64,000 nucleotides of DNA, from positions 31,845-95,844 of the forward strand of contig JAEEKX010000034.1 in NCBI GenBank assembly GCA_016288655.1, read 5' to 3'. Positions 20,601 to 38,495 of the stretch are shown here, one piece after another. Origin of the DNA: Bacteroidales bacterium (GTDB lineage Bacteria; Bacteroidota; Bacteroidia; Bacteroidales; WCHB1-69). Within the stretch, counting starts at the first letter, position 1. Every line of letters begins with the position of its first letter. The position numbers were made by a program, and so were the translations under genes. The notes beneath the pieces are model-generated. The model had not been told where the DNA came from. It saw only the letters and a list, made by a program, of their open reading frames with translations, and searched no databases.

Positions 20601-23600
20601 GGTACGGATCGCTGAACTCGATGGTCGCATCCGGAGCGGTGGCCTCAGTGAAAGTATGGTCATGATAGGTGAACGGCAACTGGCTTTCGCAGATGGTGGT
20701 GTCGATGGTGAGCAGTGTGGGGACCACCTCGTAGTGCATCACTACGGAATCGACCGCCAACTCGCCGGCCAGCGTAGTGGCGCCGCCGCCGCCCACAAGG
20801 CCTTCGCCGCTGTTGTATGTCAGCATGTAGTCCTCGCCGCCTTCGCGCTCGCGCAAGAAGAACTTGATCTTGTACTCGCCCGGCACGTTCCACTGAGCCG
20901 TCAGGTGGTTCGTGGTGGAAGTGAGGAAGTCGAGGTACCAGTACGTGTATCTGTAATAGACCACGCGGAAGGTATTGGTCGGGATACTGCCCGCACCCGT
21001 CAGCAGATTTCGTCCAACATTCTGCTGGATGTCGGCATAATAGGTTGAGAAATAGACCGAACCGTAGTCCGAAACATCACTGATAACCTCGCCATTGCGG
21101 GTGATTTCATAGTCGATGCACACCTTGCGGTTGCTGAGGCCGGAGCCATTGACATTCATGCTGAAAATGGCCGTATCGCCCAGATTGTCGGCAAACTGGG
21201 TCGTGTCGATGTCAATGCCGACGGGCACCTCGACGATGTTCAGATGGATGATGCTGTCGCAGCCGCTGGCACTTGGCAACACAATGTCGTAGTTGCCGGC
21301 CTGGTCGAAGACATTGTCATCGTCAAACGCATAGGGCAGTTGCATCGGAGCCACATTCACCTCAATGGTGGTATCGGACGGCTCGTTGATGGTGAGGTTC
21401 AACTCATAGACCGCCGGGCAGTTCTCATACGTGCTGTTGTACGTATAGTTGCCGGAAGTCGTGTAGGTCTGACCGTCGATCCAAGTGTAGGAGCCGCAGG
21501 CCGTGACGTTGTCGGTGAGGTGGAAGTCGCCCGTGCCGATGCTCAGGTGCATCGTCACCACGCTGTCGCAGCCGTTGGCGGCCGGCAGGGTGGCCTCGTA
21601 GTCGCCAGCACTGTAGTACTCCTGGTTGTTCCAAACATAACTGCTCACGCAGTTGCCCAGTTCAACGCTGAACTCATGATAAACCGTAGGCGTGATCTCC
21701 ACGTTGACCGGATACATCTGATAGGATCCTTCGTTGCCGTTGAACACTTCGTAGTATCCGCTTTCGGTAAATTCGACATCGTACAGGTATTGCGGCAGTT
21801 CGCTTTCGCAGAATTGGAGGTTCTGCACAGGCATCGTGTCAACGGGACCGACATGGAAGTTGATAAAGACGGTGTCGGAGAGCACCGAGTCGGTCTGCCA
21901 GGAGCCGGCGCCGCCGAGCACCCGTCCGTACTCGTCCACATACGCATAGTCCATGCCGCTGGCGCTCGCCTTGCGGAGCACCACGAGTTGGAGTCGGTAC
22001 TCGCCCGGTTCGTTCCACATGGCAGTCACCGTGTTATCGACGCTGCACATGTAGTCGGCGTAGAAGTAATCGTAGTTGTAATTGTACATGTTGTAGGTGT
22101 TGCCCGGCAGTTCGCCCGTGCCATTCCACAGCATGGCGCCGAAGTTGTCGTCGGCAACCGGCGAGTATGTGCTCATGCTCACTTGTCCGTAGTCCTCCAC
22201 CCGTTCGATAAGCGTATCGTCCTTGTAAAGTTGATAGGCGATGGCCAACTTGGCGCCCGGGAAGTCACAATCCTTGCGGACATTGAATGCAGCCGTGGCC
22301 GTCTGTCCCACGGGCACGACGACATCCGTGACAGGCACATCCAGGAACGGCTCGTTGGAGATGTTGAACTCAAGGGTATAGATGATGCTGTCGCACTGGT
22401 GGTTGTCGATGTCGCTGAAGGAAGAGACGCACGGCACAATCACCTCACGGGTGATGGTGGTGTCCTTCATCGTGGGTCCACCCAGACGCTCGCCCGTCAC
22501 CGGCCATACGTACTCAGGACTATAGTTGCAGTAGTGGATGCGGGTGGCACGTTCGATCGGATACGTCACCGTGAGCGTCAGGTTGACGATGCTGTCGCAA
22601 CCGTCGGCGGTGGTGTAGTGATAACTATAGTTGCCCGACTGCGTGCATACCTCGTCGGGGTGGTTGACGGCATCGAAGACGTAGTCAAGGTCGGAAGCGC
22701 AGATGTGCACTGCCGTATCCTTGGAGTAGAGGAACACCTGCAACGTGGCCTCCACCGTAGCGGCGCAGCCATGTTCGCTTTCGGTGGCCGTGACCGTGTA
22801 GATACGCTGTCCCGGTGCCGCGGGAGTGGCATGCACCGTGGCGCCGGTGGTGGCGTCGAGTTCCTCACTGGCCTCCCACGCAAAGGTGGCGCCGGCAATG
22901 TCACTGTGGGCAACCAACTCGTAGGTCGGACCCAAGCAGACCATATCGACTTCGGGCGTCACGGTCAGATGGTGGGAAGGATAGACGGCAATCCGCACGG
23001 CGTTGCTGTAGGCGACACCGCAGGCGTTGGTGTCGGCATGGCGCAGCCACTGGCCATTCCACAAGTCGGCATCAATGCCGTTCTCAACATCCACCTCCAC
23101 CAGATCGTCCGCCTGAGAGAAAGCGCTGTCGGCGCTCAAGTACCAGCCGGAGCCGGTCACAGGTTCGCCATTTTCGGAGAGCACCGTCGGCACGTCGAGA
23201 TTGAAATCGTCACCGGAGCAATAAGTATCGCTCGGTGCAAGCAACTCGCTCACCGTCGGCACATCGTTCACCAGCAACTGCACGCTGTTGGTCGTCATGG
23301 AACCGCATTCATTACCAATGTAATAACGGATGAAGGCGAGGTTCATGCCATAGTCGATGATAGTGTCGGCCGGGAAGCGGGTGTACAAATTGGATCCGTA
23401 AGCCATCGTATATTCCCAACCCTGGGTGATGGTGCCGCCGAACTCATGGGTGACCGGAGGCAGGATCGCCAACGGCTGGCCCGCACAAACAGCTCCGTCA
23501 AGGGCGGTGATGTCCTCGGCCGTCGGGGCCTGCATGAAGAGCATCTGAATGGTATCCGAATAGACCTCTCCACAGCCGTTGCTGGCGAAGTACCACGCCT

Positions 23601-26600
23601 TTACCTCAGGACCATAGTTGAACTCACGGTCGGCGGAGAAATCCACCTCAACGCCATCCACCATGACCTTCCAACCTTCAGAGACATCAGAACCACTGTT
23701 GTTGTGATAGTTGACGGTCGGCTGATAGGTATCCCACGGGAACACACCCGACCCGCAGATGGGATCCGGTTGAGGAATCTCCGAAATCTCCGGCAGACTA
23801 TCCACCTTGAGTTGGAGAACGTTGCTGTAGCCCGTCACGCAATCCGTGGTGACGAAGTAGCGGAGATACCAGTCATTGTACGACATCATAACAGGGTCGG
23901 TAACCGTGAAGTCCTCGTAGTTGACGCCGTCTTCCGAAATCTGCCATCCCTGAGCATCGACGGTCACGCCGAGCGCGTCAAGGAAGGTGACAAAATGCGG
24001 GGTGTCGATATTCAAGGCACTGCCGGCGCAGATGTGCTCCGGCGCCGCGATCTCATCAATAACGGGAGCGTCAAGCACATAGACGGTCTTGTCCACGCAC
24101 TCTGTAGTCCCGCACACCTCGGAATCAAACCGCACATAGTAGGTGGTCGTCTGCGTGGGCGTTACCGTAATCTGATAATCGCCCTCGCCGGAGAAGAGCA
24201 GCGTTCCGTCATCGCAACTGCTGCTACGCCATTCATACACGGCATCAGTACCCTGCGTACCTCCTTCAGCCGTCAACTCAACCGACTGTCCATTACAGAC
24301 GTAGTCGTCACTCTGGATGCTCATACCCTCAATGGAAGAGGGAGCGTTGATATAGACCTCCACATAATAACTATCCTGTGAGACACATCCGAACTGGGTT
24401 TCCCCGTAGAGCGTGTAGTGGATGTCGCCCAGGAAGTGGAAGTTGCCATGCGTAGAAGAGAAAGCATTGTCGCCGGAGGCGGTTCCGTAGCCGGCATGGA
24501 TCGAGAGCGCACTGGTGCTGTACTGGTTGAGCAGCTGGCCGGGAACGATACCCGCGGTATTGTTGGATTGAGAACCGTAAAGTCGGTAATACAAGTCATT
24601 ACCACTGAGGATGTAGAAAGTGAAGGTCTCTCCGGCATGGATGTTCACGGGAGCGTTCAAAGGCACGGTGCACAGTTCGCGCGGCACCATGTCGAATTCG
24701 CCCTGACCGATCAGGTTCCAACCCTGCTGGTGCGTCGCCGTAGCCATACAACTGCCCCGACGATAATAGACCTGCGCATTGGCGTTTCCTCCATATCTCG
24801 GATAGAAACTCAACGAGTCGATGGTCATGTCGGCATTGGCCGTCACATCGACGAAGACGCCGTACCCCGTGTGGTTGCCGGACAAGCCCGTAGCGAGTTC
24901 AAAGGAACCGGACAGAGAGACCAGGTCGGTGGCCGCGTATGCGTAATAAACTGCATAATCGGCCGTTCCGTACTCCTCGGCGGGTACAGAGAAGATGTCA
25001 AGACTTTCGCTGGCACCGAGGAACTCGTTGTCTTCATTATACCAGATCAGCATGGGCTGTTCTTCTTCAAAATCACCTTCGGAGACAAAGGTCTCACCCG
25101 TCAGAAGAATATCCTGACCAGAGCAGAAGACATCCGTCCATTCCATGTCCTCATTCACAGACCATGCATCGGGAAAATCGATGGGCTGCGGCAGCACCTG
25201 CACCTGTCCGACGGAAGACTCGCACTGGTACTGTTCGGGGTAGTAGTAGTGGATGAGAACGTAGCCGTTCTTTGTATCGACCGGTTTCGCGGGCAGGGTA
25301 GGATCGTTGCCGGAAATCATGGTCGTGTTGATCAGTTGACGGGAGGCATCGACAGCATAGGATGCCGGGGCATAGCCGTTGGTCTCGGACTCACTGGTCC
25401 AGACGAAGCCGCTGCCGCCGCCGCCACCGGCGAAGAGGTTGGCACCCGCGCCGGACGCGCCGCCGTACCAGCCGCCGCCGCCACCACCGCCGTTCGTGGC
25501 GATGGCCGTGTTGGCCGTTCCGAAAGCGCCGATGAGGTTGTCTCCTGCTTCGTTGAAGCCGGCAGCGACCTGCGAGGCGCCGTTACCACCCTGATCAGCC
25601 GCGCTGACGCCATTGCCGCCGTTGCCGCCGGACAAGCCGCCGCCATAGCCGCCGAGCACATGGCGACTGCTGGTGGTAAAGCCGCTGCCACCGCCGCCGC
25701 CAGCCACAATCAGACGGCTGTTGTAGTGTTCGTTGCTGTTGGCCTCGGCGTTGACGAGCGCGACGTCGGTCGCACCGCCGCCGCCACCGCCGGCAGAAGC
25801 GCTGGCAGTGCCGCCACCGTTGTAGCCGCCGATAGAGCCCACACCACGTCCGCCAACATAGATGTAGAGTTGCGAAAGACCATCCACATTGTTGAGCGTG
25901 CCCACGGTGTAACCGCCACGGCCGCCCGCGGTGTCAGGCACGTTGCCACCTGTAATCGCTCTCGTGCCGCCGTCGGCGCCCCAGACCTCAAAGGTGAGTC
26001 TGCTGACTCCGTCCGGAATATCAAAGACCTGAACGTCGTTCGTGTAGGCGAATCCCTGCTCGCCCTCTTGCGCGGAGGCCAGCAGACCACGGAAAGCTTT
26101 CACATAATAGGTGACCGTATCGGTGTTGGACGCACCGTCGAGGTCATAGGTGGAGCCACGGTTCACCTCGTTGTGGCATGTAGGATCGGAATACCAAACA
26201 TAGGTGAGCGATGCGTTGGGATTGTTGACGGAAAGGGTGACGGGCGTTCCGCAAACCATCTCTTGGTCGGTCAGTTCCGGAGCCGCAAGCGGCTGTACCG
26301 TCACCGTCACCGGCGTTGCCTCGGTAAGACAGAGGGTGTCGAAGTTGGGGCGCAGGTAGGAGATGATGGCCACGCCGTTGCCCGCACGACCGTAGGTATA
26401 GCCGCCGGTGGGACTGGGCATGCGTTCGTCGCCAGCGATGAGGGAGGTATGGGTGAGGGAAGAGCCGACATAGCCGGATCCGCCGCCGCCCGCGCCGGAT
26501 TGGTCGGCAGAGGCGCCGCCGCCGCCGCCATAGTAACCGCCGCCGCCACCAGAGCCGCCGCTACCGCCGTTGCCGCCGGAGCCGCCCTGGCCACTGGTCG

Positions 26601-29600
26601 TGCCAGGCATGCCGTTGGCCGTGCCGTTGTAACCGCCGGCACCGGCAGAAGAGCTCGTGGCTCCCCTACCGTAACGGTTGGCGATGGTAGAAGTTCCGTT
26701 GACGCCAGACAGGCCGCCGCCGGCACCGCCGGTGATGGTGGATGCTGTGTTGGCATACGCCGCGCCGCCGCCGCCACCCGCGACCAACAAGCGGTCTTCC
26801 AGCATATTGCTGCCCAGACGGATGTCAGTGGCACCGCCACCGCCCGCACCGGGATAGTAGTTCACACTCGCCGTGCTGGCACTGCCGCCGTAACCGCCGC
26901 CGTTGAAACCGCCGGCAGCGGCCGTGCCGACATGACCGTTCACGCCGTTTTCTCCCTGACCGCCCACATTCACGTAGAGCGTCTCGCCACCCTCAACGGC
27001 CAAAGTACCGGCTGCATAGCCGCCCTTGCCGCCATATTGGATGGTGGAGAGGTTGGAACCGTACTGGACGCTACCACCCTGAGCGCCCCATGCCTGCAAC
27101 GCGACTTCGCTCACAGCCATCGGGACAACGAACTCAAAGGTGTTTCCATTATAAGTAATGACAGAATCCACCAACTCGGTGCCGGGGACTTGGCTCAAGC
27201 CAAAGGAGCGGACATAGAAGGTGGTCGTGGTCCCCATGTTGGGAGCATCCCAGGTCGCACCCGTATGTACCAGTTGCGTACACTCCGGATCGGCATACCA
27301 GTTATAGTTGAGACCATTGACGGCATTGGAGACTTCCAAGTGCGCCGTCATGCCACAGTCCACCGTGACATCCTCGACCTGGACAGGTTCGGGTTCGCTG
27401 GTGGTGATGGTGATGGATGCGGCCTCGGAGATGCAGGGAGATTCGACCATGCCGATGGGGATGATGCGGGCGTAGCCGTTGCCGGGATGGCCAACCTCCG
27501 TATTGCCATCGGGAGCGGGCATGCTCAGGTTGCCGGCGATAGTCTGGGCTTCAGTCAAGCCATCTATGTAGCCGGAACCGCCGCTGCCGGCATTGCCGGC
27601 AGCGCCACCGTACCAGCCGCCACCGCCGCCACAAACGGTTGAACCGCTCGTCTGCGATGATCCTTGTCCAAATGACGCATTGTTATTGTACGAGTCTGTG
27701 CCAGGTCCCGACTGGGTACCGCCCGTGCGTTCTCCGTTAACACCAGACAGACCGCCACCGGCACCTGCGGTGTACGAGTTGCCATCATAATACAAGTTGC
27801 CTCCACCACCGCCAGCCACAATCTTCACGGCCGAACGATTAGAGGAGAGTGTGCTCAACAGGCCGGAAGCAGTGGCAATATGCGTAGCACCGCCACCAGC
27901 ACCTCTCACACCATTATCTCCATGATATCCGGCACCTCCGCCATTGTAGCCCCCTGTGGAAGAACCCGACAAGGAAGCCGACGATGAGGAACCGCCGCCC
28001 TGTCCTCCGACATGGACATACAAAATCTGACCGGGTTCGACCTCCAGCGTACCATTGGAGTAGCCACCACGGCCACCCATGTTGCTCGGGCCGCCTTGAC
28101 CACCCTGCGCGCCCCAGACTTCCAGACGCACTTGATGGATGCCGTTCGGAATCTCATAAGTCTGTTCCGAACCCGTATAGCTGAACTCCACAGGCACGAC
28201 CGCAGCCGCCTGCGGAACACTTCTCACATAGTAAGTGGTGTTGCCACCAACCATCGTCGTGTAGGTGGCACCCTCGTGCATCACCGCACCGAAAGCGGGA
28301 TCCGTGCTCCATTGATAGATCAACTGGTCATCGGGATTCTCCACCGACAGCGTGACCTGCGTACCACAGATGACATTGTCGTTGGAGGCCGTCACCGTCG
28401 GAGCCACATCGGGGTTGATGTGTACCGTCACCGGCAACACGACAGACGGGCAGCCCGAAGCGATACGGATTTGTCCGGAGATGCGGGCATAGCCGCTGCC
28501 GGTGCGACCGGTCACCGTACTGCCCGTGGGCGACGGCATGCTCTGGTTGCCGGCCAACAGCGAAGTATTGGTCAGAAAATGGTCGCTCGCAAAGTGATAG
28601 CCCGACGGATGATAGGAGTCGGCAGTGTTGACATAGCCGCTGCCGCCGCCGCACATCTCACGGTAGTAAGAGTAACTGTCGGTATAATTCTGATAAGAGC
28701 CGCCGCCGTACCAGCCGCCGCCGCCACCGGCAGGACAATATCTGTAATTGGATACAGAAACGGAGTTTGCTCCTTGTCCGAAACTACCGCTGGAACCGGC
28801 TGCAGACTGCGTACCGTAATAGCTGGAGGAGTATCCGGCCCCCGTAGTACCACCACCGGCCCAGCCGACATTGCTGTTGGAAGCGCCAGAGCCGCCACCG
28901 GCTACGATGATACGATCGTACAAGGAGGTCCCGTTCAAACGGATATCGGTTGCGCCGCCACCGCCTTGCGCGTATGTATAGGTTCCCGACCATGACGTCA
29001 TGCGGCCATTGCCGCCGCCATTGTATCCGCCAGGAATGGTATAACCCGCATTATTGGTTGTATAACTGCTCGGCTGACCGCCGACATAGACATGCAACAC
29101 GTCGCCAGGAGTCACGGCCAACGTTCCGGCCGCATAACCACCCTTGCCACCTTGGTAAGTGGAAGAGTAGTTGCCACCCTGGGCGCCCCAAACCTGTAAG
29201 GTGAGTTCCGAAACTCCATCCGGCACCGTATAGGTGTAACTGCCGGATGAGCTGTAGTTCATCTCAATATCCTGCATAATCTCTTCATAAGCCTGCACAT
29301 AATAGGTTGTCTCCTCGGTAATATCGGGTGTGGTCAACGTGGTGCCCACATGGATGAGGTCCGTACACTGGGCATCCGAGAACCAGCAGTACTGGAGAGT
29401 CGGATTCGGATCCTGCACCGACAACGTGGTGTGGGTGCCGCAAGAGACGTATGCGTCGGCGATGACAGGCTGAGGCAGAGCGGCGACAACCGTCAAGACG
29501 CTGCTGTTCTGAGAAGCAGTCCACGTGTTGTCGCAGCCGTTCTGGAATTCACGGGTGAAGACGTGCTGTCCCGGCGTGAGCGACGCCAGCACGCTGCCCG

Positions 29601-32600
29601 GCAATTCGAACGAGGGAACATCGGAATCATCCAACACTGTGCCGTCCACCAACCAACGATAGCTCGAATAACCGCCTGAAACGCCATCAACCAAGGTGCT
29701 GAAGACGACCGGCTGCGTCTCGGAAGCACATACAGTATGCGCAGTGGTCGCGATGGAACCGGCATTGAAAATCGGCTCCGTAACGATATGCGAACCCGTG
29801 GCGGAACATCCATGAGCGGAGGTCCCGGTGACCAGATAGGTGCCGACGGCATCCACGGTGATAGTAGAACCGTTTTCACCCGTACTCCACTCGTAGGACT
29901 CCGCGCCGGAAGCTGTGAGGTCGACGCTGCCACCCGCGCAGAGTGCCTCCGGCGAAGAGGTGATCTCCACATCGGGATTCACATGCACGTCGTAGGAGAG
30001 CACCGCATCGCAGTTGTAACCGGGCGCGGAAACCGTGACCGTATAGGTCTGATCCTCCGTCGGATTCACCGTGATGGACTCCGTCTCATCACCCGTGTTC
30101 CAGGAATAGGAGTACTGACCGCGCGGCTCGAACGCATAGACCGTGCCGGAGGTGAGGTACGATGCACCCACCCCTGTGATGTTGTCATTGCCCGTAACGG
30201 TGGAGGTCGTTGCCGTGCCAGCACCGGTGGGAGTGACACTTATGAAGGAGAACTGCCCATCGACATTGCTGTTGATGCCGATGGATGCACTGGATCCGAT
30301 AGAAGAGCTGAAGCCACTGCCGTACCAGAACTCGATCTTGTTGCTGCCTTCATATAATTTGACTTGATAGTAGAACGGATAACCACTGTAACTCAATTGA
30401 TATCCATAATGCTGGAACGTAAATACCCTGTTGGGCGCGGTTCCCGTGGTCTGATACTTGACCGTAGTGCCATACAAATCGTCCCAGAAAGGAGCCAATA
30501 TGTTGTAGTAACTGCCACTGGCAAGTTGATTGTAATGGTAAGCGCTGGTACCACCCAACTGGAGGAAACCATTGCTGCTTCCCTGTGTGATGGTGGTGTA
30601 ATCCGTACCGCAGTAATTGAACGTGAATCCAATCGGAATGTTCGCAGGGTAACTGTCGTCGGAACCAGAGATGCAGGTGGTGCCGCCAGAAAGGGTCTGG
30701 AAAGTCTCATGGCGGACACTGAAGTCGTAATTGTCTGCGCCCGTGGCATTCGAGGAGGCACCCTCCACCTGGAGGGTGAAGTCGGCGCCGTTCTCAAGGC
30801 AGAAGGCCTCGTCGGAAACGCTCAACGTCACTTCGGGAGAGGCGACATGGATGGTCACCTCATCGGTGATGGTGCACCCCTCGTTGGAGGCGGTGAGCGT
30901 ATAGGTCGTGGTCACGCCTGGGCTCACGTAGTAGTGGCCGTCGCGCTCATAAACGCCTTCGCTGAAGGAGTGGGTCAGCACGTCGCCGGAGAGTTGTACC
31001 GAGAGTTCGATCTCCTCCTGGTTACAGGCCTCGTTGGAGGATGCCGTCAGCTCGGCAGTCGGGACCGGGTAGGGATTCACCTGGACGGGGATGATGTCGG
31101 TGCCGCAGGTGCTATTGTTGACAGATTGTAGGATTGTGATGCGGGCGAAGCCGTTGCCGGCATGACCGGTTTCGGTACCGCCGTTGGGGGCGGGCATGCT
31201 GAGGTTGCCCGCCACGAGTTCGCTGCCAGTGACGGCTGTGCCGGCATGTCCGGAGCCGCCGCCACCGCTATAGCAACTGGTGCTGTTGCCGCCACGGCCA
31301 CCGCCGCCGCCATACCAGCCGCCGCCACCACCGGCACCGCCGGTGTAACTACCCGACAGGTTGCCGCCACGGCCGCCCTGGCCGAATGTGCCCGCCAAAC
31401 CGTCGTTGGTGCCATACGATGAACCAGCACCACCAGCCGACTGGGTGCCACCCTTACCATAGTAGGAAGAACTGCTGTAGGGCGAACCGCCAACGAGACC
31501 GCCGCCGTAGCCGCCGGGATAACTGCTCGCGTATCCGCTGCCCGCGCCGCCACCGGCCACCAACAGGACATCGCCCTGATGGCCCGACAACGACGAAAGC
31601 ACACCGGAACGGGTGGCGATATGCGTGGCGCCACCACCGGCACCACCTTGATAATAGTAACCGGAATATCCGTGGTATCCACTGTTGCCGCCACCGTTGT
31701 AGCCGCCTTGACGAGCCGCATACGTGCTGCTCTGATTCAACGCAGGCGCTCCCTGCCCGCCAACGTTGACATACAACGCAGTGAGGTTGGAGACGTCGAT
31801 GGTGCCTGCCGCATATCCACCCTTGCCGCCAGCATAACTGGTAGTGGAACTATTGCGGCCTTCTCCACCTTGGGCACCCCAAACCTCCAAACGGACGGAA
31901 GTGACACCCGCAGGGATCTCATACACCTGCTCTGAACCAGTGTATTCAAAGTCGGTGACAGGTGAGGAGATAATCATGCCCTGTACATAGTAGGTCGTGG
32001 GACCACTCACCGTGGGGGTGAAAGTGATGGCCGTGTCAAGCGGATTGGAACCGTCGGCATTGGCACTCCACACATAACTGTACCCGGGAATCGGGTTGGT
32101 TACCGTCAACGATGAAGGAATGCCCTCACACGAAGAGACTTCCACCACCGGGTTCTCCGGATCGAGCTTATGGACGGCCACAGGGATGATCTCCGAAGGG
32201 CACCCCAACAGCACGCGGCGCGTCACCTCGATGGTCGCATAGCCGTTGCCGCTGCGGGAGCCAGAAGTCATGGAAGTATTAGTAAGCATCGGGCTAAGAT
32301 AGCCAGAACCGCCGCCGGCACTGTAGCAACTGGTGCTGCTGCCGCCGCGGCCGCCGCCACCGCCGTACCAACCGCCGCCGCCACCGGCACCGCCGGTGTA
32401 ACTACCCGACAGGTTGCCGCCACGGCCGCCCTGGCCGAATGAACCCGCCAGACCGTCGTTGGTGCCATACGATGAACCGGCGCCACCAGCCGACTGGGTG
32501 CCGCCCTTACCATAGAAATTGCTGGTGTACGGAGTGCCGCCATTGGCACCACCGCCGGCACCACCACCATAACTGGTGGAATAGCCGCCATGACCACCGC

Positions 32601-35600
32601 CGCCACCGGCTACGATGAGCACATCCCCACGGTAGTCCGACAATGACGAGAGCACACCCGAACGGGTGGCGATATGCGTGGCACCACCACCGGCGCCCCC
32701 TTGGTAATAGGATGAATAACCGTGGTATCCACTGTTGCCGCCACCGTTGTAGCCGCCCTGACGGGCAGCATAGGTCGAACTCTGGTTCAAGGCAGACTCG
32801 CCCTGGCCACCCACATTCACATACAACGTGCTGATCCCGTTCAAGTCGATGGTACCCGTGGCATATCCGCCCAGACCGCCAGAATAGGTGGAGGAACTGC
32901 TATAACGTCCGGATCCACCCTGTGCGCCATAGACTCGCAAGACCGCACTCTGCGCACCATCAGGCACCTGGAACACCTGCTCGGCACCCGTGTAGTTGAA
33001 GGTCGTCGTCTGAGTGGTGATGTTCACATGTTCAACCTGCAAATAGAAAACCGTATCTTCCGTGATGGCCGGCGTCGTGAACTCGGCACCCTCATGCAGC
33101 AGGTTCTCCCCTGCCGGGTCGGAATACCAACGATAGAAATAATCGTTGCCACTATATCCGGATGCTGTCAGCGTGGTGGAAGTACCGCAAGCCACCATGG
33201 TCTCGCCGCTTATGGCCGGAGCCGTCATCGGCGGGTTGATGGTCAACGTGGCCGTGGCACCGGGAACGGAACTGCCGCATTCGTCATCGAAAGTGCGCGT
33301 CACCGCAAAGACACCGATGCCCAGAGTCTCCCTGTCGGCCGCCGTCAAAGTATAAGAAGGCGTGGTCGTATTGACATTGACAGAAGGACCGATTTGCCAA
33401 TGATAAGTGATGTCGCCTCCGCCCGTGGCCGGAGTCCCGACAAGCGTAATCTCGTATTCGCTTTGGCAAACCTCCAAATCGTCAACACTCCCAGCATGAG
33501 GTGTAGTCAACTCGTTGACAGTGACAATATTGGAGTTTGCGACACATCCCTCTTCAGTCATTCCTTCAACCACATAACTGGCCGCATCGGCAGTGTAGGT
33601 GGCACCTGTCCCTACCTGCACGCCATTCCGCCTCCACACGTAGTTGTCCGCGCCACTGGCTGTCAAAAGGACAGTAGCACCGGCACACGTATAAGGATTC
33701 TCTGGCGCAACCTCGACAGTAGGAATCACCCGAACCGTATGGTCGATGACCGCATCGCAGTTGAATGAAGGACTGGAAACGGTGACCGTGTATGTTGTTG
33801 TCTCATTAGGAGTTACCGTCAACGTGTTGCTCGTCGCTCCGAGAATCGGCTCACCATTGGCCGCCCATGCATACGTCGGATTTGACATACAGTAAACATC
33901 TGCCTCCCAGCCCGAATAAAGCACCGAACCATCTGAATAGAAATAGACGGTCAGACTGTTACCCGTAGAAGTGAATGTATGACCGTTCCATGTGGAATTA
34001 CCGCTGCTGGTACCCATCTGGGGGGCTGAGCTGCTGGTGCCATTGTAGATGGTGATATAGTCGCAGCAGGACTCGAAATTGGCACTGTTGATGATCAGTG
34101 TGACATGATTGCCCACAGGGGCGGTAAAGGTTGTATAGTAGGAGGCGGAATTGGAATAATTGCCGGTGGGACCGCCATTGTCGTAGAAGTGGTATCTGTC
34201 GCCGGCATTCAACGTCCGGACAGTGGTGCCGGCATACATGTTGATCGTGCCTGTATAGCTGCTCGGGACGACCGATCCACCCTGTACCGTGAGGGTGCTG
34301 CTGCTGCCCGCCGACACGCACTCGCCATTATCGCTAGCCATAAAATCCACTGAGGGAGCATCCACAACAATGGTCTGAGCATGCTCCGTGCTGCAATAGT
34401 CATTGTAGGCCGACACCGTGTAGGTGGTGGTGATGCCCGGAGTGACCGTGTGCGTGGTGGAAGTGCTCACCGTGCCGTCACTCCACTCGTAGCGGACAAT
34501 GTCGCTGCTGGGGTTGTTGATGGTGAGGGTCACCGGCATCCGACACGTGGTGTTGGCAGATGCGGAGAGGGTGAAACTGGGCTGCGCGCCCAAGACGACC
34601 GGCACCGTGGTGATGGCCGACTGACAGGCCACCGTCATTCCCTCGAAAGTAATGCGTGCATAGCCGTTGCCCGTATGTCCAGTCTCCGTGCCGCCGCCAG
34701 GTGCGGTGAAGGAGGTGTTGCCGGCGATGGTTTGAGCGCCGGTCAGATAATAGTCGGAGGAGACGTTGTAGCCGGAGGGCGCGTTGGAAGCAGTGGAGGA
34801 GGTCCAGACATAGCCGGAACCGCCGCCGCCGTATCTGCCGTCGGAGTCGGAGTCGCTATCATAGGCGCCGCCGCCGCCGTACCAGCCGCCGCCGCCGCCA
34901 CCGCAGGAGTAGTTGTATGCGTCGCCGCCCTGTCCGAACGTTCCACGGGTGGAGGTGATACTGTTCCATGAGATGCCGCCCTGAGTCGGGGTGGCGCCGC
35001 CGCCGCTGCGGTTGGCGCCAGTGACATAGGAACCCGAAACGTAGTTGTAGTAGCCGTCACCGCCATAGGCGCCGCCACCGCAACCTGCCGGATTCGCGCT
35101 GCCGTAGGAGATGCCCGCGCCACCGCCGCCGCCGGCGACGATGATCCTGTCGTACAAGGTGCTGCCGATCACGCGGATGTCTGTGCCACCACCGCCGCCA
35201 CGGCCATTGATGACACCGTCGCCGCCGCCGTTCCAGCCGCCCGTGGTGTTCGTGCTGCCAGCACCACCAACATATACGTTGAACTGGCTGATGCCCGACA
35301 AGTTAGAGATCGTGCCGACAGAGTAGCCGCCACGACCGCCCGTATAACTGCCGTAAGTGCCGCCTTGCGCACCCCACACCTGCAGGGTGGCAGCGGTGGC
35401 GCCGCTGGGCACCGCAACCGTCTGAACGCTTCCCGTAAACGAGAAGTCATACACCGGATTGTATGTACCTGAATAGGCGCGTACATAATAAGTGGCGTTG
35501 CTATAGTTGTTGTTCACCGTGTAGGTAGTACCCTCGTGCAGCGGATCGCCCGAACAACTGGCGTTGCTCCACCAGCCGTAGGTCAGGCCCGGCACTGGGT

Positions 35601-37752
35601 TAGTGACCGTCAGCGTGAGGTCCTCGCCAGGACAACGGCCATCCACCTCCACCACAGGAGCGGGCGGAATGGAGGCCGCACCCACCAACACGTTCGTCGC
35701 AGACGAATAGGTGTATATGGGAGGAAGCACATACGAGATGCGGGCATAGCCGTGGCCCGTGCGGCCGGTCATGGTGCCGCCGTTGGGGCTGGGCATGGAG
35801 GCATTGCCCGCGACGGTGCTGCCGCCGCTGACGCCGCCGATGTAACTGGCGCCGCCGCCGCCACCGCGGTCGTCGTCACTACTTCCGTCAGGATAGGTGC
35901 CGCAGCCGCCGTACCAGCCACCGCCACCGGCGCCGCCGTAACCGGAACTCCTGTAGATGCCGGAGCCGCCGTAGCCGAAGCCGCCGCCCCAGTAGGTAGA
36001 AGAGGAATAACTCGTACCCGAAAGCCCGGTCGTATATTGAGTCGTATTGGTATAACCGCCGCTGCTGGTCTGGTTGCCGGCGTTACCACCACTGCCGTAT
36101 CCACCGGAGGCCGCGATGCCCGTGGTGCCACCGCCCGCAGCACCGGCATAGGAAGATCCGCCGTCGGAACCGCCGCCACCAGCCACCAACTTCACAGCCG
36201 ATTGGTTGGTTCTCAGGTTTTTCAGCACGCCCGAGGCAGTGGCAAAGTGCGTGGCACCACCACCACCATGGTAACCATATCGATAACCACCGCCGTTGTA
36301 GCCACCGGCATAGACGCCGCTGGAATAACTGCCGGAATTGCCGGAACCACCCACGTTCACGTAGATGGTCTGCCCCGGCGTGACGGACAAAGTGCCCGTG
36401 GCATAGCCGCCCTTGCCGCCGTAGGTAGAACTGGAACGGTAGCCCCCCTGCGCGCCCCACGCCTGCAAGGTGAGACTAGTCACCCCGGAAGGTACCACAA
36501 AGGTCTGCTGACCACCGGTATAGTCATAATTGAGCGTGACATCCTGCCCCATCTGCACGGAGCAACTGGCTTTGCAGTATATCGTTTGCGGGGTCTCGCC
36601 CGCCGTAAAACTGTAACTGGATCCCTCTCCCAACAACTGCGTGCAGGCGGCATCGGAATACCACAAGTATTGTGAGAAGTCACCCGTGGTTGTCAATGTC
36701 ACATCCTGTCCGCAGACCAGATTGCTGAGGTCGGTGCTGGGGGTGACCGTCGGCGCAGGCACGGAAGCGGGACACGGACGCGTGAAAGTCGTATAAGAGC
36801 ACCCCTCGGCCTCTCCATTACTATTGTACGGCTGCACCCAACAGAAATACTGCCCGTAGTTCAGGCCCGTCGCCGCCACCGAAGTGGATGTGGTGGTGTA
36901 GGTCGGCGTGGAGGGAATGGTAGGAGAAGTGGAGAGATAGACGTGATAGCCCGTGGCTCCCGAAACGGAAGGCCAACTCAACGTGGTCATAGAGCCGTCG
37001 ATGTTGGAGCCGTTGGCCGGAGAGGAGAGTTGCGTGCACGACGGTATCAACATCATCGACAACCGGATCTGGTTCTTGCTCATCAGACGGGTCCCGCTAT
37101 AGCCCGACGGACTGGACGGACTATAGTTCGTGCCATCGCTGTATATATACATCGCCTGGTACCCGCTGGTGCTGTAAACATAGTCGGTGCAACTGCTCAC
37201 ATAATCGCCGGTGTTGTCGTCCACGCACAGTAGAAGGTTGCTCGTCCCATCGTAATGGAAAGGCGTGGTCAGGTTGACGGTGTACCACCCCGATGAAGAG
37301 GGAATGGACATCGACCCTTGATACACCAGGTCGCTGGAAGAGACAGCCACCCAATCGGAGGTGCTCGAGAACTCGTTTTTGTTCGTGTGCTTCAAATAGA
37401 CAGCGACAGTACGTGTTGCTGACGTTGAACTGTGGTAGAAACTGATGGACAGAATACGACCGGCGCCACCACCCGCAGCCGCGATCTCCGATGCCGTATA
37501 GATCTGCTGCGACAACGTGTAAGAGTACCACTCATACGTTGGAAGATAGGAATTAGTAGTAGAGGCGGTGCCAATAGTCACATTGGTCTGCGCCTTCACG
37601 CCAGTGGGCATAAAGGAAAGAAGCGCGACAGCCAGGCCAAGCAGCCAGAGCGTCATGCTCAGCGACAGCCGACGGTTCAGACACTTCTTTGAGGATGCTT
37701 TCAATCCCGATCTTGAGACTTGAAGATTTGAAGGGGTAGTTTTTGCTTCCAT
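17695..37752 (-). CDS. Giant T9SS surface protein with eight ALK/LTK-like glycine-rich domains
   Basis: One uninterrupted 6,685-codon reading frame. Approximate residues: 1-55 signal peptide with a long basic n-region; 57-230 beta domain; 233-325 fibronectin type III-like; eight Ig-like plus glycine-rich modules between 330 and 4170; CUB at 1162-1287; a possible nidogen-like region at 2348-2517; beta domain at 4210-4480; many Ig-like repeats with endings such as GCDSIVNLTLTV; four related repeats at 5137-5304, 5511-5674, 6246-6420 and 6426-6594; T9SS type A tail from 6605 (VYPNPARDVVRI to KLVITK). It should cross the outer membrane by T9SS and be displayed or released. Adhesion or matrix building is inferred. 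No enzyme motif was found. No canonical promoter lies upstream; the closest match is TATTATTG near 37784. A terminator follows. Confidence 0.93.
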   Translation of the reverse strand: MEAKTTPSNLQVSRSGLKASSKKCLNRRLSLSMTLWLLGLAVALLSFMPTGVKAQTNVTIGTASTTNSYLPTYEWYSYTLSQQIYTASEIAAAGGGAGRILSISFYHSSTSATRTVAVYLKHTNKNEFSSTSDWVAVSSSDLVYQGSMSIPSSSGWYTVNLTTPFHYDGTSNLLLCVDDNTGDYVSSCTDYVYSTSGYQAMYIYSDGTNYSPSSPSGYSGTRLMSKNQIRLSMMLIPSCTQLSSPANGSNIDGSMTTLSWPSVSGATGYHVYLSTSPTIPSTPTYTTTSTSVAATGLNYGQYFCWVQPYNSNGEAEGCSYTTFTRPCPASVPAPTVTPSTDLSNLVCGQDVTLTTTGDFSQYLWYSDAACTQLLGEGSSYSFTAGETPQTIYCKASCSVQMGQDVTLNYDYTGGQQTFVVPSGVTSLTLQAWGAQGGYRSSSTYGGKGGYATGTLSVTPGQTIYVNVGGSGNSGSYSSGVYAGGYNGGGYRYGYHGGGGATHFATASGVLKNLRTNQSAVKLVAGGGGSDGGSSYAGAAGGGTTGIAASGGYGSGGNAGNQTSSGGYTNTTQYTTGLSGTSYSSSTYWGGGFGYGGSGIYRSSGYGGAGGGGWYGGCGTYPDGSSDDDRGGGGGASYIGGVSGGSTVAGNASMPSPNGGTMTGRTGHGYARISYVLPPIYTYSSATNVLVGAASIPPAPVVEVDGRCPGEDLTLTVTNPVPGLTYGWWSNASCSGDPLHEGTTYTVNNNYSNATYYVRAYSGTYNPVYDFSFTGSVQTVAVPSGATAATLQVWGAQGGTYGSYTGGRGGYSVGTISNLSGISQFNVYVGGAGSTNTTGGWNGGGDGVINGRGGGGGTDIRVIGSTLYDRIIVAGGGGGAGISYGSANPAGCGGGAYGGDGYYNYVSGSYVTGANRSGGGATPTQGGISWNSITSTRGTFGQGGDAYNYSCGGGGGGWYGGGGAYDSDSDSDGRYGGGGSGYVWTSSTASNAPSGYNVSSDYYLTGAQTIAGNTSFTAPGGGTETGHTGNGYARITFEGMTVACQSAITTVPVVLGAQPSFTLSASANTTCRMPVTLTINNPSSDIVRYEWSDGTVSTSTTHTVTPGITTTYTVSAYNDYCSTEHAQTIVVDAPSVDFMASDNGECVSAGSSSTLTVQGGSVVPSSYTGTINMYAGTTVRTLNAGDRYHFYDNGGPTGNYSNSASYYTTFTAPVGNHVTLIINSANFESCCDYITIYNGTSSSAPQMGTSSGNSTWNGHTFTSTGNSLTVYFYSDGSVLYSGWEADVYCMSNPTYAWAANGEPILGATSNTLTVTPNETTTYTVTVSSPSFNCDAVIDHTVRVIPTVEVAPENPYTCAGATVLLTASGADNYVWRRNGVQVGTGATYTADAASYVVEGMTEEGCVANSNIVTVNELTTPHAGSVDDLEVCQSEYEITLVGTPATGGGDITYHWQIGPSVNVNTTTPSYTLTAADRETLGIGVFAVTRTFDDECGSSVPGATATLTINPPMTAPAISGETMVACGTSTTLTASGYSGNDYFYRWYSDPAGENLLHEGAEFTTPAITEDTVFYLQVEHVNITTQTTTFNYTGAEQVFQVPDGAQSAVLRVYGAQGGSGRYSSSSTYSGGLGGYATGTIDLNGISTLYVNVGGQGESALNQSSTYAARQGGYNGGGNSGYHGYSSYYQGGAGGGATHIATRSGVLSSLSDYRGDVLIVAGGGGGHGGYSTSYGGGAGGGANGGTPYTSNFYGKGGTQSAGGAGSSYGTNDGLAGSFGQGGRGGNLSGSYTGGAGGGGGWYGGGGGRGGSSTSCYSAGGGSGYLSPMLTNTSMTSGSRSGNGYATIEVTRRVLLGCPSEIIPVAVHKLDPENPVVEVSSCEGIPSSLTVTNPIPGYSYVWSANADGSNPLDTAITFTPTVSGPTTYYVQGMIISSPVTDFEYTGSEQVYEIPAGVTSVRLEVWGAQGGEGRNSSTTSYAGGKGGYAAGTIDVSNLTALYVNVGGQGAPALNQSSTYAARQGGYNGGGNSGYHGYSGYYYQGGAGGGATHIATRSGVLSSLSGHQGDVLLVAGGGAGSGYASSYPGGYGGGLVGGSPYSSSSYYGKGGTQSAGGAGSSYGTNDGLAGTFGQGGRGGNLSGSYTGGAGGGGGWYGGGGGRGGNSTSCYSGGGGSGHAGTAVTGSELVAGNLSMPAPNGGTETGHAGNGFARITILQSVNNSTCGTDIIPVQVNPYPVPTAELTASSNEACNQEEIELSVQLSGDVLTHSFSEGVYERDGHYYVSPGVTTTYTLTASNEGCTITDEVTIHVASPEVTLSVSDEAFCLENGADFTLQVEGASSNATGADNYDFSVRHETFQTLSGGTTCISGSDDSYPANIPIGFTFNYCGTDYTTITQGSSNGFLQLGGTSAYHYNQLASGSYYNILAPFWDDLYGTTVKYQTTGTAPNRVFTFQHYGYQLSYSGYPFYYQVKLYEGSNKIEFWYGSGFSSSIGSSASIGINSNVDGQFSFISVTPTGAGTATTSTVTGNDNITGVGASYLTSGTVYAFEPRGQYSYSWNTGDETESITVNPTEDQTYTVTVSAPGYNCDAVLSYDVHVNPDVEITSSPEALCAGGSVDLTASGAESYEWSTGENGSTITVDAVGTYLVTGTSAHGCSATGSHIVTEPIFNAGSIATTAHTVCASETQPVVFSTLVDGVSGGYSSYRWLVDGTVLDDSDVPSFELPGSVLASLTPGQHVFTREFQNGCDNTWTASQNSSVLTVVAALPQPVIADAYVSCGTHTTLSVQDPNPTLQYCWFSDAQCTDLIHVGTTLTTPDITEETTYYVQAYEEIMQDIEMNYSSSGSYTYTVPDGVSELTLQVWGAQGGNYSSTYQGGKGGYAAGTLAVTPGDVLHVYVGGQPSSYTTNNAGYTIPGGYNGGGNGRMTSWSGTYTYAQGGGGATDIRLNGTSLYDRIIVAGGGSGASNSNVGWAGGGTTGAGYSSSYYGTQSAAGSSGSFGQGANSVSVSNYRYCPAGGGGGWYGGGSYQNYTDSYSYYREMCGGGSGYVNTADSYHPSGYHFASDHFLTNTSLLAGNQSMPSPTGSTVTGRTGSGYARISGQIRIASGCPSVVLPVTVHINPDVAPTVTASNDNVICGTQVTLSVENPDDQLIYQWSTDPAFGAVMHEGATYTTMVGGNTTYYVRSVPQAAAVVPVEFSYTGSEQTYEIPNGIHQVRLEVWGAQGGQGGPSNMGGRGGYSNGTLEVEPGQILYVHVGGQGGGSSSSASLSGSSTGGYNGGGAGYHGDNGVRGAGGGATHIATASGLLSTLSSNRSAVKIVAGGGGGNLYYDGNSYTAGAGGGLSGVNGERTGGTQSGPGTDSYNNNASFGQGSSQTSGSTVCGGGGGWYGGAAGNAGSGGSGYIDGLTEAQTIAGNLSMPAPDGNTEVGHPGNGYARIIPIGMVESPCISEAASITITTSEPEPVQVEDVTVDCGMTAHLEVSNAVNGLNYNWYADPECTQLVHTGATWDAPNMGTTTTFYVRSFGLSQVPGTELVDSVITYNGNTFEFVVPMAVSEVALQAWGAQGGSVQYGSNLSTIQYGGKGGYAAGTLAVEGGETLYVNVGGQGENGVNGHVGTAAAGGFNGGGYGGSASTASVNYYPGAGGGGATDIRLGSNMLEDRLLVAGGGGGAAYANTASTITGGAGGGLSGVNGTSTIANRYGRGATSSSAGAGGYNGTANGMPGTTSGQGGSGGNGGSGGSGGGGGYYGGGGGASADQSGAGGGGSGYVGSSLTHTSLIAGDERMPSPTGGYTYGRAGNGVAIISYLRPNFDTLCLTEATPVTVTVQPLAAPELTDQEMVCGTPVTLSVNNPNASLTYVWYSDPTCHNEVNRGSTYDLDGASNTDTVTYYVKAFRGLLASAQEGEQGFAYTNDVQVFDIPDGVSRLTFEVWGADGGTRAITGGNVPDTAGGRGGYTVGTLNNVDGLSQLYIYVGGRGVGSIGGYNGGGTASASAGGGGGGATDVALVNAEANSNEHYNSRLIVAGGGGGSGFTTSSRHVLGGYGGGLSGGNGGNGVSAADQGGNGASQVAAGFNEAGDNLIGAFGTANTAIATNGGGGGGGWYGGASGAGANLFAGGGGGSGFVWTSESETNGYAPASYAVDASRQLINTTMISGNDPTLPAKPVDTKNGYVLIHYYYPEQYQCESSVGQVQVLPQPIDFPDAWSVNEDMEWTDVFCSGQDILLTGETFVSEGDFEEEQPMLIWYNEDNEFLGASESLDIFSVPAEEYGTADYAVYYAYAATDLVSLSGSFELATGLSGNHTGYGVFVDVTANADMTIDSLSFYPRYGGNANAQVYYRRGSCMATATHQQGWNLIGQGEFDMVPRELCTVPLNAPVNIHAGETFTFYILSGNDLYYRLYGSQSNNTAGIVPGQLLNQYSTSALSIHAGYGTASGDNAFSSTHGNFHFLGDIHYTLYGETQFGCVSQDSYYVEVYINAPSSIEGMSIQSDDYVCNGQSVELTAEGGTQGTDAVYEWRSSSCDDGTLLFSGEGDYQITVTPTQTTTYYVRFDSEVCGTTECVDKTVYVLDAPVIDEIAAPEHICAGSALNIDTPHFVTFLDALGVTVDAQGWQISEDGVNYEDFTVTDPVMMSYNDWYLRYFVTTDCVTGYSNVLQLKVDSLPEISEIPQPDPICGSGVFPWDTYQPTVNYHNNSGSDVSEGWKVMVDGVEVDFSADREFNYGPEVKAWYFASNGCGEVYSDTIQMLFMQAPTAEDITALDGAVCAGQPLAILPPVTHEFGGTITQGWEYTMAYGSNLYTRFPADTIIDYGMNLAFIRYYIGNECGSMTTNSVQLLVNDVPTVSELLAPSDTYCSGDDFNLDVPTVLSENGEPVTGSGWYLSADSAFSQADDLVEVDVENGIDADLWNGQWLRHADTNACGVAYSNAVRIAVYPSHHLTVTPEVDMVCLGPTYELVAHSDIAGATFAWEASEELDATTGATVHATPAAPGQRIYTVTATESEHGCAATVEATLQVFLYSKDTAVHICASDLDYVFDAVNHPDEVCTQSGNYSYHYTTADGCDSIVNLTLTVTYPIERATRIHYCNYSPEYVWPVTGERLGGPTMKDTTITREVIVPCVSSFSDIDNHQCDSIIYTLEFNISNEPFLDVPVTDVVVPVGQTATAAFNVRKDCDFPGAKLAIAYQLYKDDTLIERVEDYGQVSMSTYSPVADDNFGAMLWNGTGELPGNTYNMYNYNYDYFYADYMCSVDNTVTAMWNEPGEYRLQLVVLRKASASGMDYAYVDEYGRVLGGAGSWQTDSVLSDTVFINFHVGPVDTMPVQNLQFCESELPQYLYDVEFTESGYYEVFNGNEGSYQMYPVNVEITPTVYHEFSVELGNCVSSYVWNNQEYYSAGDYEATLPAANGCDSVVTMHLSIGTGDFHLTDNVTACGSYTWIDGQTYTTSGNYTYNSTYENCPAVYELNLTINEPSDTTIEVNVAPMQLPYAFDDDNVFDQAGNYDIVLPSASGCDSIIHLNIVEVPVGIDIDTTQFADNLGDTAIFSMNVNGSGLSNRKVCIDYEITRNGEVISDVSDYGSVYFSTYYADIQQNVGRNLLTGAGSIPTNTFRVVYYRYTYWYLDFLTSTTNHLTAQWNVPGEYKIKFFLREREGGEDYMLTYNSGEGLVGGGGATTLAGELAVDSVVMHYEVVPTLLTIDTTICESQLPFTYHDHTFTEATAPDATIEFSDPYHIYDTVVTFTLHVNPEYALYDTAYLCAGEPYADNNFDLSADTIAQMAANSDRAVFTLAGQTAAGCDSTVTLTLFVKPLPQVELAAPTTMVCEGVAIPLSASGAEEYTWSIDTLVGDNPMLTITSDLTVYVTGSVVYPAVSQYYDDVVCVASDSIELTMLPVDRVDEYEAEVCQGEPYMDEIFDVEAAKTQTVGIVDTIVELGRSYCGIHTAHLTLTVHPAYNAVVGFATVEDEVCEGYGYQGHGFLLSADSIETLRGQTQQMNEVVVYNYDETEFSCDSITELRLHILPTAYSQASVSLCAPLYWPASYEENDQQFLLYGDTTIEVRYTQETTGCDSIRLVTVHFDEMPEVEIMGTEVCANIDETLLVIETNNQVVDSIRWYVNNDLAGEGMELALTRDDFESSMMVSVYSGACVNVQQFGITTLDNPTVELTADICEGETYTAPNGEEYSAEDTYTWTVSGEECDTIYTLMLNVHERHARTFEVTVDVTDLPFVYNGAQYETAGTYEVNVPDPNGYCDSLVTFTLTIIDPYNGEAFITAEAIDDNSFEVRAFANTLDPETKVSINYSLYRLDPATQQNVLVDAIATECGGTMNVGTDFNGGNLGGYITAGQGNIPSSNCLIGNTHYDFFYLHFLNRRQNTVSYDFTVPGTYTMVFELMPEENGTDLAITYTQDGVTRRIGGKNSVEGAAAIASTSYTFTIGNTNEDLLGNPMLTLSETNVTEPASSVTLTCDDNDYDSNAKVAVRYTLFRDDEPLSDVVNSGSIYMSTYVPSMHNAYGAAVTDPSGSIPGNTFSIAQMYNYNYFYMNYLSDDDVYTTINATWHQPGNYKIVFDLLTMQGGSDLALTWDGTHRIGGKNAVATNTVLASATLNYTIESVGAPMGVAAFEDGSTLQVYPNPARDVVRIQTSLRDSRCTITDMNGQTIYDVELPAEGTPLDLNVAQWSAGVYFVTVRTTDQVLTQKLVITK
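17697..17940 (-). other. T9SS type A C-terminal sorting domain of the giant protein
   Basis: The last 80 codons encode LQVYPNPARDVVRIQ, TDMNGQTIYDVELPAEG, WSAGVYFVTVRT and KLVITK: the conserved order YPNP, NxxGQxV, GxYxVxV and a KxxVxK-like end of type A tails. This is the signal for T9SS export and attachment. Confidence 0.9.
17970..22340 (-). repeat. Four copies of an unassigned ~165-residue repeat
   Basis: Copies are encoded at about 22340-21840, 21220-20730, 19015-18490 and 18475-17970. All share an opening strand region, a line of the type Y-x-L-[YF]-x-D (AYQLYKDD, DYEITRNG, NYSLYRLD, RYTLFRDD), then YGxVxxSTY or its relative, G-x-[GL]-x-IPxNT[FY], a Tyr-rich stretch such as YNYDYFYADYM, and W-x-x-PG-x-Y-x-[IL]-x-F. 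The last two copies are adjacent. The first three are separated by Ig-like repeats. I cannot match the unit to a named family. Confidence 0.75.
31253..31770 (-). repeat. Near-identical direct repeat, copy in glycine-rich domain 4
   Basis: About 520 bases almost identical to 32306-32820, read in the same direction. The offset is 1,053 bases, becoming 1,050 after a one-codon indel (GYSGYYYQ against GYSSYYQ). For example TAGCAACTGGTGCTG is at 31271 and 32324. Confidence 0.85.
32306..32820 (-). repeat. Near-identical direct repeat, copy in glycine-rich domain 3
   Basis: Partner of 31253-31770. It shares long exact blocks, such as the stretch containing CCGGTGTAACTACCCGACAG, whereas the other glycine-rich domains have diverged. 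Confidence 0.85.
33887..34268 (-). other. CUB domain within the giant protein
   Basis: About 125 residues: an opening GTINMYAG, then FYDNGGPTGNYSNSASYYTTF, VTLIINSANFESCCDYITIYNG and SLTVYFYSDGSVLYSGWEADVYC. The order 'GNYxN', 'FxxExCCDYIxIYNG' and 'FxSDGSxxxxGWxAxxxC' is the CUB pattern, including the acidic calcium-site region around CCDY and SDGS. Confidence 0.85.
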
Positions 37753-38241: not shown

Positions 38242-38317
38242 TGGAGCGGTAGACGGGTCTCGAACCCGCTACCTGCAGCTTGGAAGGCTGCCGCTCTACC
38301 AAATGAGCTACTACCGC
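38242..38317 (-). tRNA. tRNA-Gly (anticodon TCC), CCA encoded
   Basis: The minus strand gives the acceptor stem GCGGTAG/CTACCGC, the D arm GCTCATTTGGTAGAGC, the anticodon stem-loop GCAGCCTTCCAAGCTGC (anticodon TCC) and the T arm GCGGGTTCGAGACCCGT. The discriminator is T, followed by CCA and then A, so CCA is encoded here but not in the two neighbouring tRNAs. Confidence 0.96.
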
Positions 38318-38324
38318 AGGTTTG

Positions 38325-38406
38325 TGGGGGAGGGTGGACTCGAACCACCGAACTCCGAAGAGGACAGATTTACAGTCTGTTGCAATTGCCGCTATGCGAC
38401 TCCCCC
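38325..38406 (-). tRNA. tRNA-Tyr (anticodon GTA)
   Basis: The minus strand gives acceptor GGGGGAG/CTCCCCC, the anticodon loop CTGTAAA (GTA) on stem ACAGA/TCTGT, a long variable arm (CCTCTTCGGAG) as expected for bacterial tRNA-Tyr, the T loop GGTTCGAGTCC, and discriminator A. No CCA is encoded. Confidence 0.95.
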
Positions 38407-38422
38407 GTGCTCTCCATGTTCG

Positions 38423-38495
38423 AGCCGATAGACGGACTCGAACCGCCGACCGGCTGATTACAAATCAGCTGCTCTACCAACTGAGCTATATCGGC
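38423..38495 (-). tRNA. tRNA-Thr (anticodon TGT)
   Basis: The minus strand gives acceptor GCCGATA/TATCGGC, the D arm GCTCAGTTGGTAGAGC, the anticodon stem-loop CTGATTTGTAATCAG (TGT), the T arm GGCGGTTCGAGTCCGTC and discriminator T. It is first in the Thr-Tyr-Gly cluster, the order seen in thrU-tyrU-glyT operons; no tuf gene follows here. Confidence 0.95.

Follow-up and report, generated by a model that had tools for sequence, protein, structure and literature searches.

An eight-copy array of ALK/LTK-type glycine-rich domains on a giant protein with a T9SS sorting domain from a gut-type Bacteroidales

SprB of Flavobacterium johnsoniae is a giant and repetitive protein carrying a type B sorting domain. 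It is an established type IX secretion system (T9SS) surface adhesin, serving gliding (PMC8986121). Bundles of glycine helices have been described in the animal receptors ALK and LTK and in the S16 adhesin gp38 (PMC13243192); in gp38, hypervariable loops between the polyglycine helices track host range (PMC6851490). The ALK/LTK domain (PF12810; PDB IDs 7mzy, 7nx3, 7nx1, 7n00 and 7lrz) is present once per receptor chain, together with an EGF-like domain, a membrane helix and a kinase. Although these two animal receptors are almost its only known bearers, the domain is common in scattered lineages of bacteria. Searching the literature for bacterial PF12810 proteins and for ALKAL-contact residues gave nothing useful; within the library covered, a single paper mentions PF12810, and no function appears to have been assigned to the bacterial domain.

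The 64,000-nucleotide stretch of DNA analysed here (the window) belongs to a gut-type Bacteroidales and holds a single ORF of 6,685 amino acids on the minus strand (17695-37752), which carries eight copies of this domain instead of the one found in ALK and LTK. Ig-like linkers stand where the receptors have the EGF-like domain, secretion is expected by T9SS, and the membrane and kinase parts are missing: a Pfam search of the whole giant protein gave no EGF-like or kinase domain, and no membrane helix is evident when the translation is read by eye from the array to the C-terminus. The protein is therefore not an ALK-type receptor. Compared to SprB, the likeness lies in T9SS export and in the surface adhesin role, established for SprB and only proposed here; the differences are that SprB serves gliding and that the window protein has a type A sorting domain.

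Architecture of the giant ORF

From the N-terminus, the ORF is composed of a signal peptide, a conserved N-terminal region, the eight glycine-rich domains (amino acids 409-4170, window positions 25243-36528), a stalk of β-domains, four C-terminal repeats and a T9SS sorting domain. Its features are as follows, all on the minus strand (-).

37591..37752 (-): N-terminal signal peptide region (aa 1-54), hydrophobic SMTLWLLGLAVALLSFMPTGVKA, judged by eye from the translation
36529..37590 (-): N-terminal region preceding copy 1, free of Pfam domains above cut-off and conserved in G009 and G012
35728..36528 (-): glycine-rich domain copy 1 (aa 409-675), PF12810 above cut-off
35446..35727 (-): Ig-like linker between copies 1 and 2 (94 aa), from PF19081 (Ig_7) and spacing
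34642..35445 (-): glycine-rich domain copy 2 (aa 770-1037), PF12810 above cut-off, placed in tree
33001..34641 (-): spacer 1 (547 aa), Ig-like units and a CUB domain, from Pfam and spacer comparison
33901..34170 (-): CUB domain within spacer 1, PF00431 (E 2.7e-7 and 5.1e-8)
32221..33000 (-): glycine-rich domain copy 3 (aa 1585-1844), PF12810 above cut-off, sister to copy 4
31951..32220 (-): Ig-like linker between copies 3 and 4 (90 aa), from Ig_7 in that part of the protein and spacing
31129..31950 (-): glycine-rich domain copy 4 (aa 1935-2208), PF12810 above cut-off
29260..31128 (-): spacer 2 (622 aa), Ig-like units, from Pfam and spacer comparison
28471..29259 (-): glycine-rich domain copy 5, PF12810 above cut-off, placed in tree
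28186..28470 (-): Ig-like linker between copies 5 and 6 (95 aa), from Pfam and spacing
27454..28185 (-): glycine-rich domain copy 6 (aa 3190-3433), the modelled copy, from AlphaFold, PDB fold matches and tree
27160..27453 (-): Ig-like linker between copies 6 and 7 (98 aa), from Pfam and spacing
26353..27159 (-): glycine-rich domain copy 7 (aa 3532-3800), PF12810 above cut-off
26053..26352 (-): Ig-like linker between copies 7 and 8 (100 aa), from Pfam and spacing
25243..26052 (-): glycine-rich domain copy 8 (aa 3901-4170), the most divergent copy, PF12810 above cut-off, placed in tree
21772..22332 (-): C-terminal repeat unit 1, without Pfam name, weakly Ig-like β-sandwich, from self-similarity, alignment, model and fold search
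20653..21207 (-): C-terminal repeat unit 2, the modelled unit, same evidence as unit 1
18457..18945 (-): C-terminal repeat unit 3, from self-similarity and alignment
17944..18459 (-): C-terminal repeat unit 4, from self-similarity and alignment
17704..17919 (-): T9SS type A C-terminal sorting domain (Por_Secre_tail), PF18962 (E 1.3e-12) and TIGR04183 (E 1.4e-11)

The gaps between successive glycine-rich domains measure 94, 547, 90, 622, 95, 98 and 100 amino acids. The five short ones are Ig_7-type linkers, while the two long ones hold further Ig-like units, with the CUB domain in the first. The repeating idea is a pair of heads with a single Ig-like linker between them, although heads 5 to 8 make up one run. 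An earlier, sequence-only reading of this DNA had placed eight glycine-rich copies at 25235-36530, a few bases off the present boundaries, and had seen them interleaved with Ig-like units on a T9SS protein; all of this holds, Ig_7 (PF19081) lying between copies and Por_Secre_tail at the C-terminus.

The protein combines the features of a T9SS type A cargo, namely a signal peptide (by eye), the TIGR04183/PF18962 domain and a genome with T9SS. Since this genome encodes SprA, a translocon protein of T9SS (match at 8e-165), and has 82 matches to the PF18962 sorting domain, export is expected. The gene lies among housekeeping genes, and its surroundings thus give no hint of function. A cluster of tRNA-Thr, tRNA-Tyr and tRNA-Gly is located just upstream of it (38242-38495, minus strand); the stretches examined around the arrays of relatives showed no tRNA.

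Family membership and predicted fold of the glycine-rich domain

All eight copies score 75-132 bits against PF12810 (ALK_LTK_GRD), whose curated gathering cut-off is 24.5 bits. When the entire genome (2.26 Mb, 93% complete) was searched in six frames, exactly eight matches came up, all in the giant ORF. With an HMM built only from the copies of other genomes, the eight score 150-215 bits, against a maximum of -9 bits for 1,600 residue-shuffled versions. The match is therefore not an effect of glycine composition. The motifs [AV][WY]GA[QD]GG and GGGG[WY]YGG are present in every copy, VGGxG in seven (copy 5 reads VGGQP) and the exact [LIV][LIV]VAGGG in six, the other two having VKLVAGGGG and VKIVAGGGG. 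They follow the order that had been read from the sequence, and the conserved elements GA-GG, GGGAT, AGGGG and GGGGxxGG come in the same order in ALK and LTK.

A profile (A2) built on 85 bacterial copies, drawn from many lineages, was run against 177,635 PDB sequences and found only ALK (best 1.2e-10) and LTK (8.2e-6), with alignments spanning nearly the whole domain. A profile of the eight copies alone meets ALK in the PDB at a non-significant E of 1.4-2, as eight copies make too narrow a profile. By profile comparison, the eight domains belong to the ALK/LTK glycine-rich domain family, PF12810.

The AlphaFold model of copy 6, computed without templates, has a mean pLDDT of 95.3 and a pTM of 0.93. 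In a PDB fold search its best 21 matches are all ALK/LTK, including an invertebrate ALK, with E from 2e-8 to 2e-5 and 16-20% identity in the structural alignments; a TM of about 0.5 and an rmsd of 7-10 Å make this a fit at family level. The domain very probably adopts the ALK-type fold, a β core with an inserted glycine-helix bundle. The glycine-rich stretches of copy 6 are confidently modelled as neither α nor β and match structures known to hold polyglycine-II helices; we infer from this that the copies would contain left-handed polyglycine-II helices packed in a bundle. The sequence-only reading had proposed this family and the modelling of one module, and had named the lack of a family match and of such a fold as what would speak against it; this outcome did not arise.

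Glycine makes up 57% of the conserved columns of the domain and 14% of the variable ones, in which Ser/Thr/Asn account for 33%. Insertions and length differences cluster at a few loop positions. The modules have few charged residues and few or no cysteines, and are rich in tyrosine. Such a dense set of bacterial copies amounts to a natural experiment on the fixed and the free parts of the fold, and offers soluble modules for structural work.

The next PDB fold matches after ALK/LTK are the Bxb1 phage tail tip (9d93) and the Pam3 phage fibre (7ypx), which also hold glycine-helix bundles but differ in topology. The S16 gp38 adhesin (PDB ID 6F45) shares the glycine-helix bundle and the variable inter-helix loops; it also differs in topology and is absent among the fold matches listed for copy 6. 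A search of the viral structure library BFVD with the same model matched many viral proteins. A phage origin by sequence was rejected, no tblastn match being found in the phage record collection, so that the link to phages is one of fold. Several BFVD entries with this fold (A0A8S5SE10, A0A8S5URB1, A0A1D7SXD8) are named “receptor protein-tyrosine kinase”, a misnomer that the shared domain seems to have caused and an annotation trap for phage proteins of this type.

History of the array and variable tips in other Bacteroidales

The domain is present in 8 of 13 genomes of the genus (that of the window counted) and in 3 of 23 other genomes of the family; it is absent from 24 genomes of other families in the order and was found in 5 of 395 other genomes sampled across the phylum. 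It also occurs in Bacilli, Clostridia, Saccharibacteria, myxobacteria and others. Those close relatives that are named are metagenome assemblies, from ruminant gut or similar. Several sister genomes hold 4-10 copies each, and ORFs of unrelated rumen/gut Bacilli (L041, L045, L082) hold 8-9 copies, so the copy number is not unique. The array had been called notable for its eight copies: it is real, but the count itself loses weight, the array being, as far as these searches reach, one among several in bacteria. The arrays of the Bacilli likewise stand on giant ORFs, in organisms without T9SS and with other linkers. A genome of the same family (G025) has a six-copy array on C18 and one of at least four copies on C98, which ends at the contig edge; these domains are again on giant ORFs, with different linkers and a spacing of about 250-260 amino acids, versus 90-100 in the window. 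On another contig of this genome (L112, G025:C65), five tandem ORFs of 515-567 amino acids have one glycine-rich domain each, near the N-terminus.

The giant ORF is orthologous to a 7,774-residue ORF of same-genus G009, with 41% identity at the N-terminus and 35% over the C-terminal 2,500 amino acids. The pair-spacer-pair-spacer-(pair...) layout is common to the window and to same-genus G009 and G006, whose gap series are 92-537-92-636-96 and 88-534-90-615, respectively. Spacer 1 is orthologous to spacer 1 of both (44-47% identity) and spacer 2 to their spacer 2 (39-41%); spacer 2 partly duplicates spacer 1, two stretches showing 33-35% identity. Among 43 modules placed in a tree, copies 5 and 6 group with copies 5 and 6 of G009, respectively, and copy 2 falls beside G009 copy 1 and G006:C85 copy 3. 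Only copies 3 and 4 are sisters inside the window, and even these differ by 68 synonymous and 67 nonsynonymous codon changes in 259; identity to copy 1 ranges from 36 to 46%. A recent tandem expansion or an assembly artefact was ruled out, since individual copies and layout are orthologous across genomes of the genus and the only close sisters have many synonymous differences: the array has been maintained. Judged from these alignments and the tree, it predates the species compared, its order having been kept with slow duplication and loss and without homogenisation.

Segatella-type genomes use the domain in another way: it forms the variable tip in families of lipoproteins. A 34-kb stretch of G454 (L124:6505-20000 through L125 to L126:619; G454:C1, about 1,956,500-1,990,600) contains two opposed tandem runs of lipoprotein-type genes, of which 15 carry the domain C-terminally and one lacks it. 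Among 13 tandem lipoproteins, the base (N-terminal part) has a mean identity of 71%, versus 50% for the glycine-rich head, and non-identical pairs whose bases are more than 80% identical have heads only 41-63% identical. Near-identical copies suggest ongoing duplication or conversion.

Segatella albensis DSM 11370 has 38 PF12810 matches, nearly all in frames without start or base and on both strands:

L042 (all), L151:4262-14938, L152:207-980, L152:2976-6459, L152:10583-12444, L153:162-4682 and L154, both strands: about 38 copies of the domain, mostly promoterless cassettes

The 17-bp site CACACGGGAAGTGTRCA occurs 32 times in this genome (15 forward, 17 reverse; 0 for the reversed control) and in none of three other genomes tested. 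The cassettes that were read start at this site, within codons for HTGSVQ. A candidate expression gene for a lipoprotein (L151:2362-4404), just downstream of two fimbrillin-like genes, ends in a cassette junction, with ACACGGGAAGTGTGCA in frame followed by an assembly gap; up to this gap its sequence is that of one cassette. A tyrosine recombinase (L153:5014-6210, minus strand; Phage_integrase 8.5e-28) adjoins one cassette cluster. The pattern looks like what a cassette-switching surface tip would leave, the exchange itself being putative.

Proposed role of the heads, and the unnamed C-terminal repeats

The plan of fixed helices and variable loops, as in gp38, together with the SprB precedent and the expected export, leads us to read the protein as a multi-head surface adhesin. 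It is probably a giant modular T9SS adhesin of the cell surface, of SprB size, with eight rigid glycine-helix heads. The C-terminal sorting domain would carry the protein across the outer membrane and lead to its attachment at the surface, where the Ig-like and related β-domains would form a long stalk. The eight ALK/LTK-type domains, mostly in Ig-linked pairs, would be the working heads, each a small β core bearing a rigid polyglycine-II helix bundle. Conserved glycines would build the bundle, and the inter-helix loops, variable in sequence and length, would provide the surface for contacts. Bearing eight different heads, a single stalk would offer high avidity and several specificities at once, with plant particles, mucus or other cells as possible targets. 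The location of the variation in the glycine-rich tip of the G454 lipoproteins and of the S. albensis cassettes favours this reading. Rigid helix bundles serving adhesion or ligand binding, as first suggested from the sequence, are a plausible proposal. Against the adhesin, giant repetitive proteins can also play structural roles, the match to ALK is at family level, and the gene neighbourhood is uninformative.

Such a structural role would make the domains inert, rigid, protease-resistant blocks of a surface layer or of a long fibre, with loops that bind nothing specific. The few charged residues, the few or no cysteines per module, the very high-confidence rigid model and the large Ig-like share of the protein would all suit a spacer. 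But the loops vary strongly while the core is kept, and relatives concentrate variation in the domain over a conserved base, with exchangeable-looking cassettes in S. albensis, which an inert spacer would not need. One gene per genome with eight different copies would also be an odd S-layer, and we regard this explanation as unlikely. Cohesion within a biofilm matrix or between cells, in which the heads would not recognise a foreign ligand but attach to one another or to a polysaccharide made by the cell itself, agrees with the multivalency, the T9SS export, the Ser/Thr/Asn-rich loops and the tyrosine-rich modules. Self-association, however, usually keeps repeats alike, and the copies have diverged to the extent given above; this role is held to be somewhat less probable still than that of a spacer.

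The sequence-only reading had also speculated on an interaction with host receptors. As mimics or decoys, the domains would engage ALKAL-type cytokines or the ALK/LTK of host cells, and they do share family and fold with the ligand-binding region of these receptors. The receptors contact ALKAL cytokines through acidic residues, of which the C-terminal ones lie beyond the end of the HMM alignment. The low identity to ALK/LTK and the missing EGF-like, membrane and kinase parts speak against it; moreover, the nearest relatives are other bacteria, including non-gut lineages, and, by fold, viral proteins, and nothing puts the window copies closer to animal ALK than other bacterial copies. This idea is very improbable and is not retained. 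The bacterial copies nevertheless bear on the origin of the ALK/LTK head. Beyond the adhesin reading of the window protein, we put forward tentatively, as a possibility with the odds rather against it, that the domain is a recognition scaffold of old standing in bacteria (and phages), with loops diversified in three ways (T9SS multi-head arrays, tandem variable-tip lipoproteins and recombinase-exchanged silent cassettes), and that animal ALK/LTK inherited a ready-made ligand-binding head from that pool.

Towards its C-terminus, the giant protein has four units of a repeated domain of ~165-185 amino acids without a Pfam name. The model of unit 2 (pLDDT 79.5) is an Ig-like β-sandwich; a recognisable binding fold was discarded for these repeats, their PDB matches being weak and generically Ig-like, none at E <= 0.001. 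The same domain is found in 11 of 13 genomes of the genus (that of the window counted) and in some others of the family; it sometimes immediately precedes a T9SS sorting domain.
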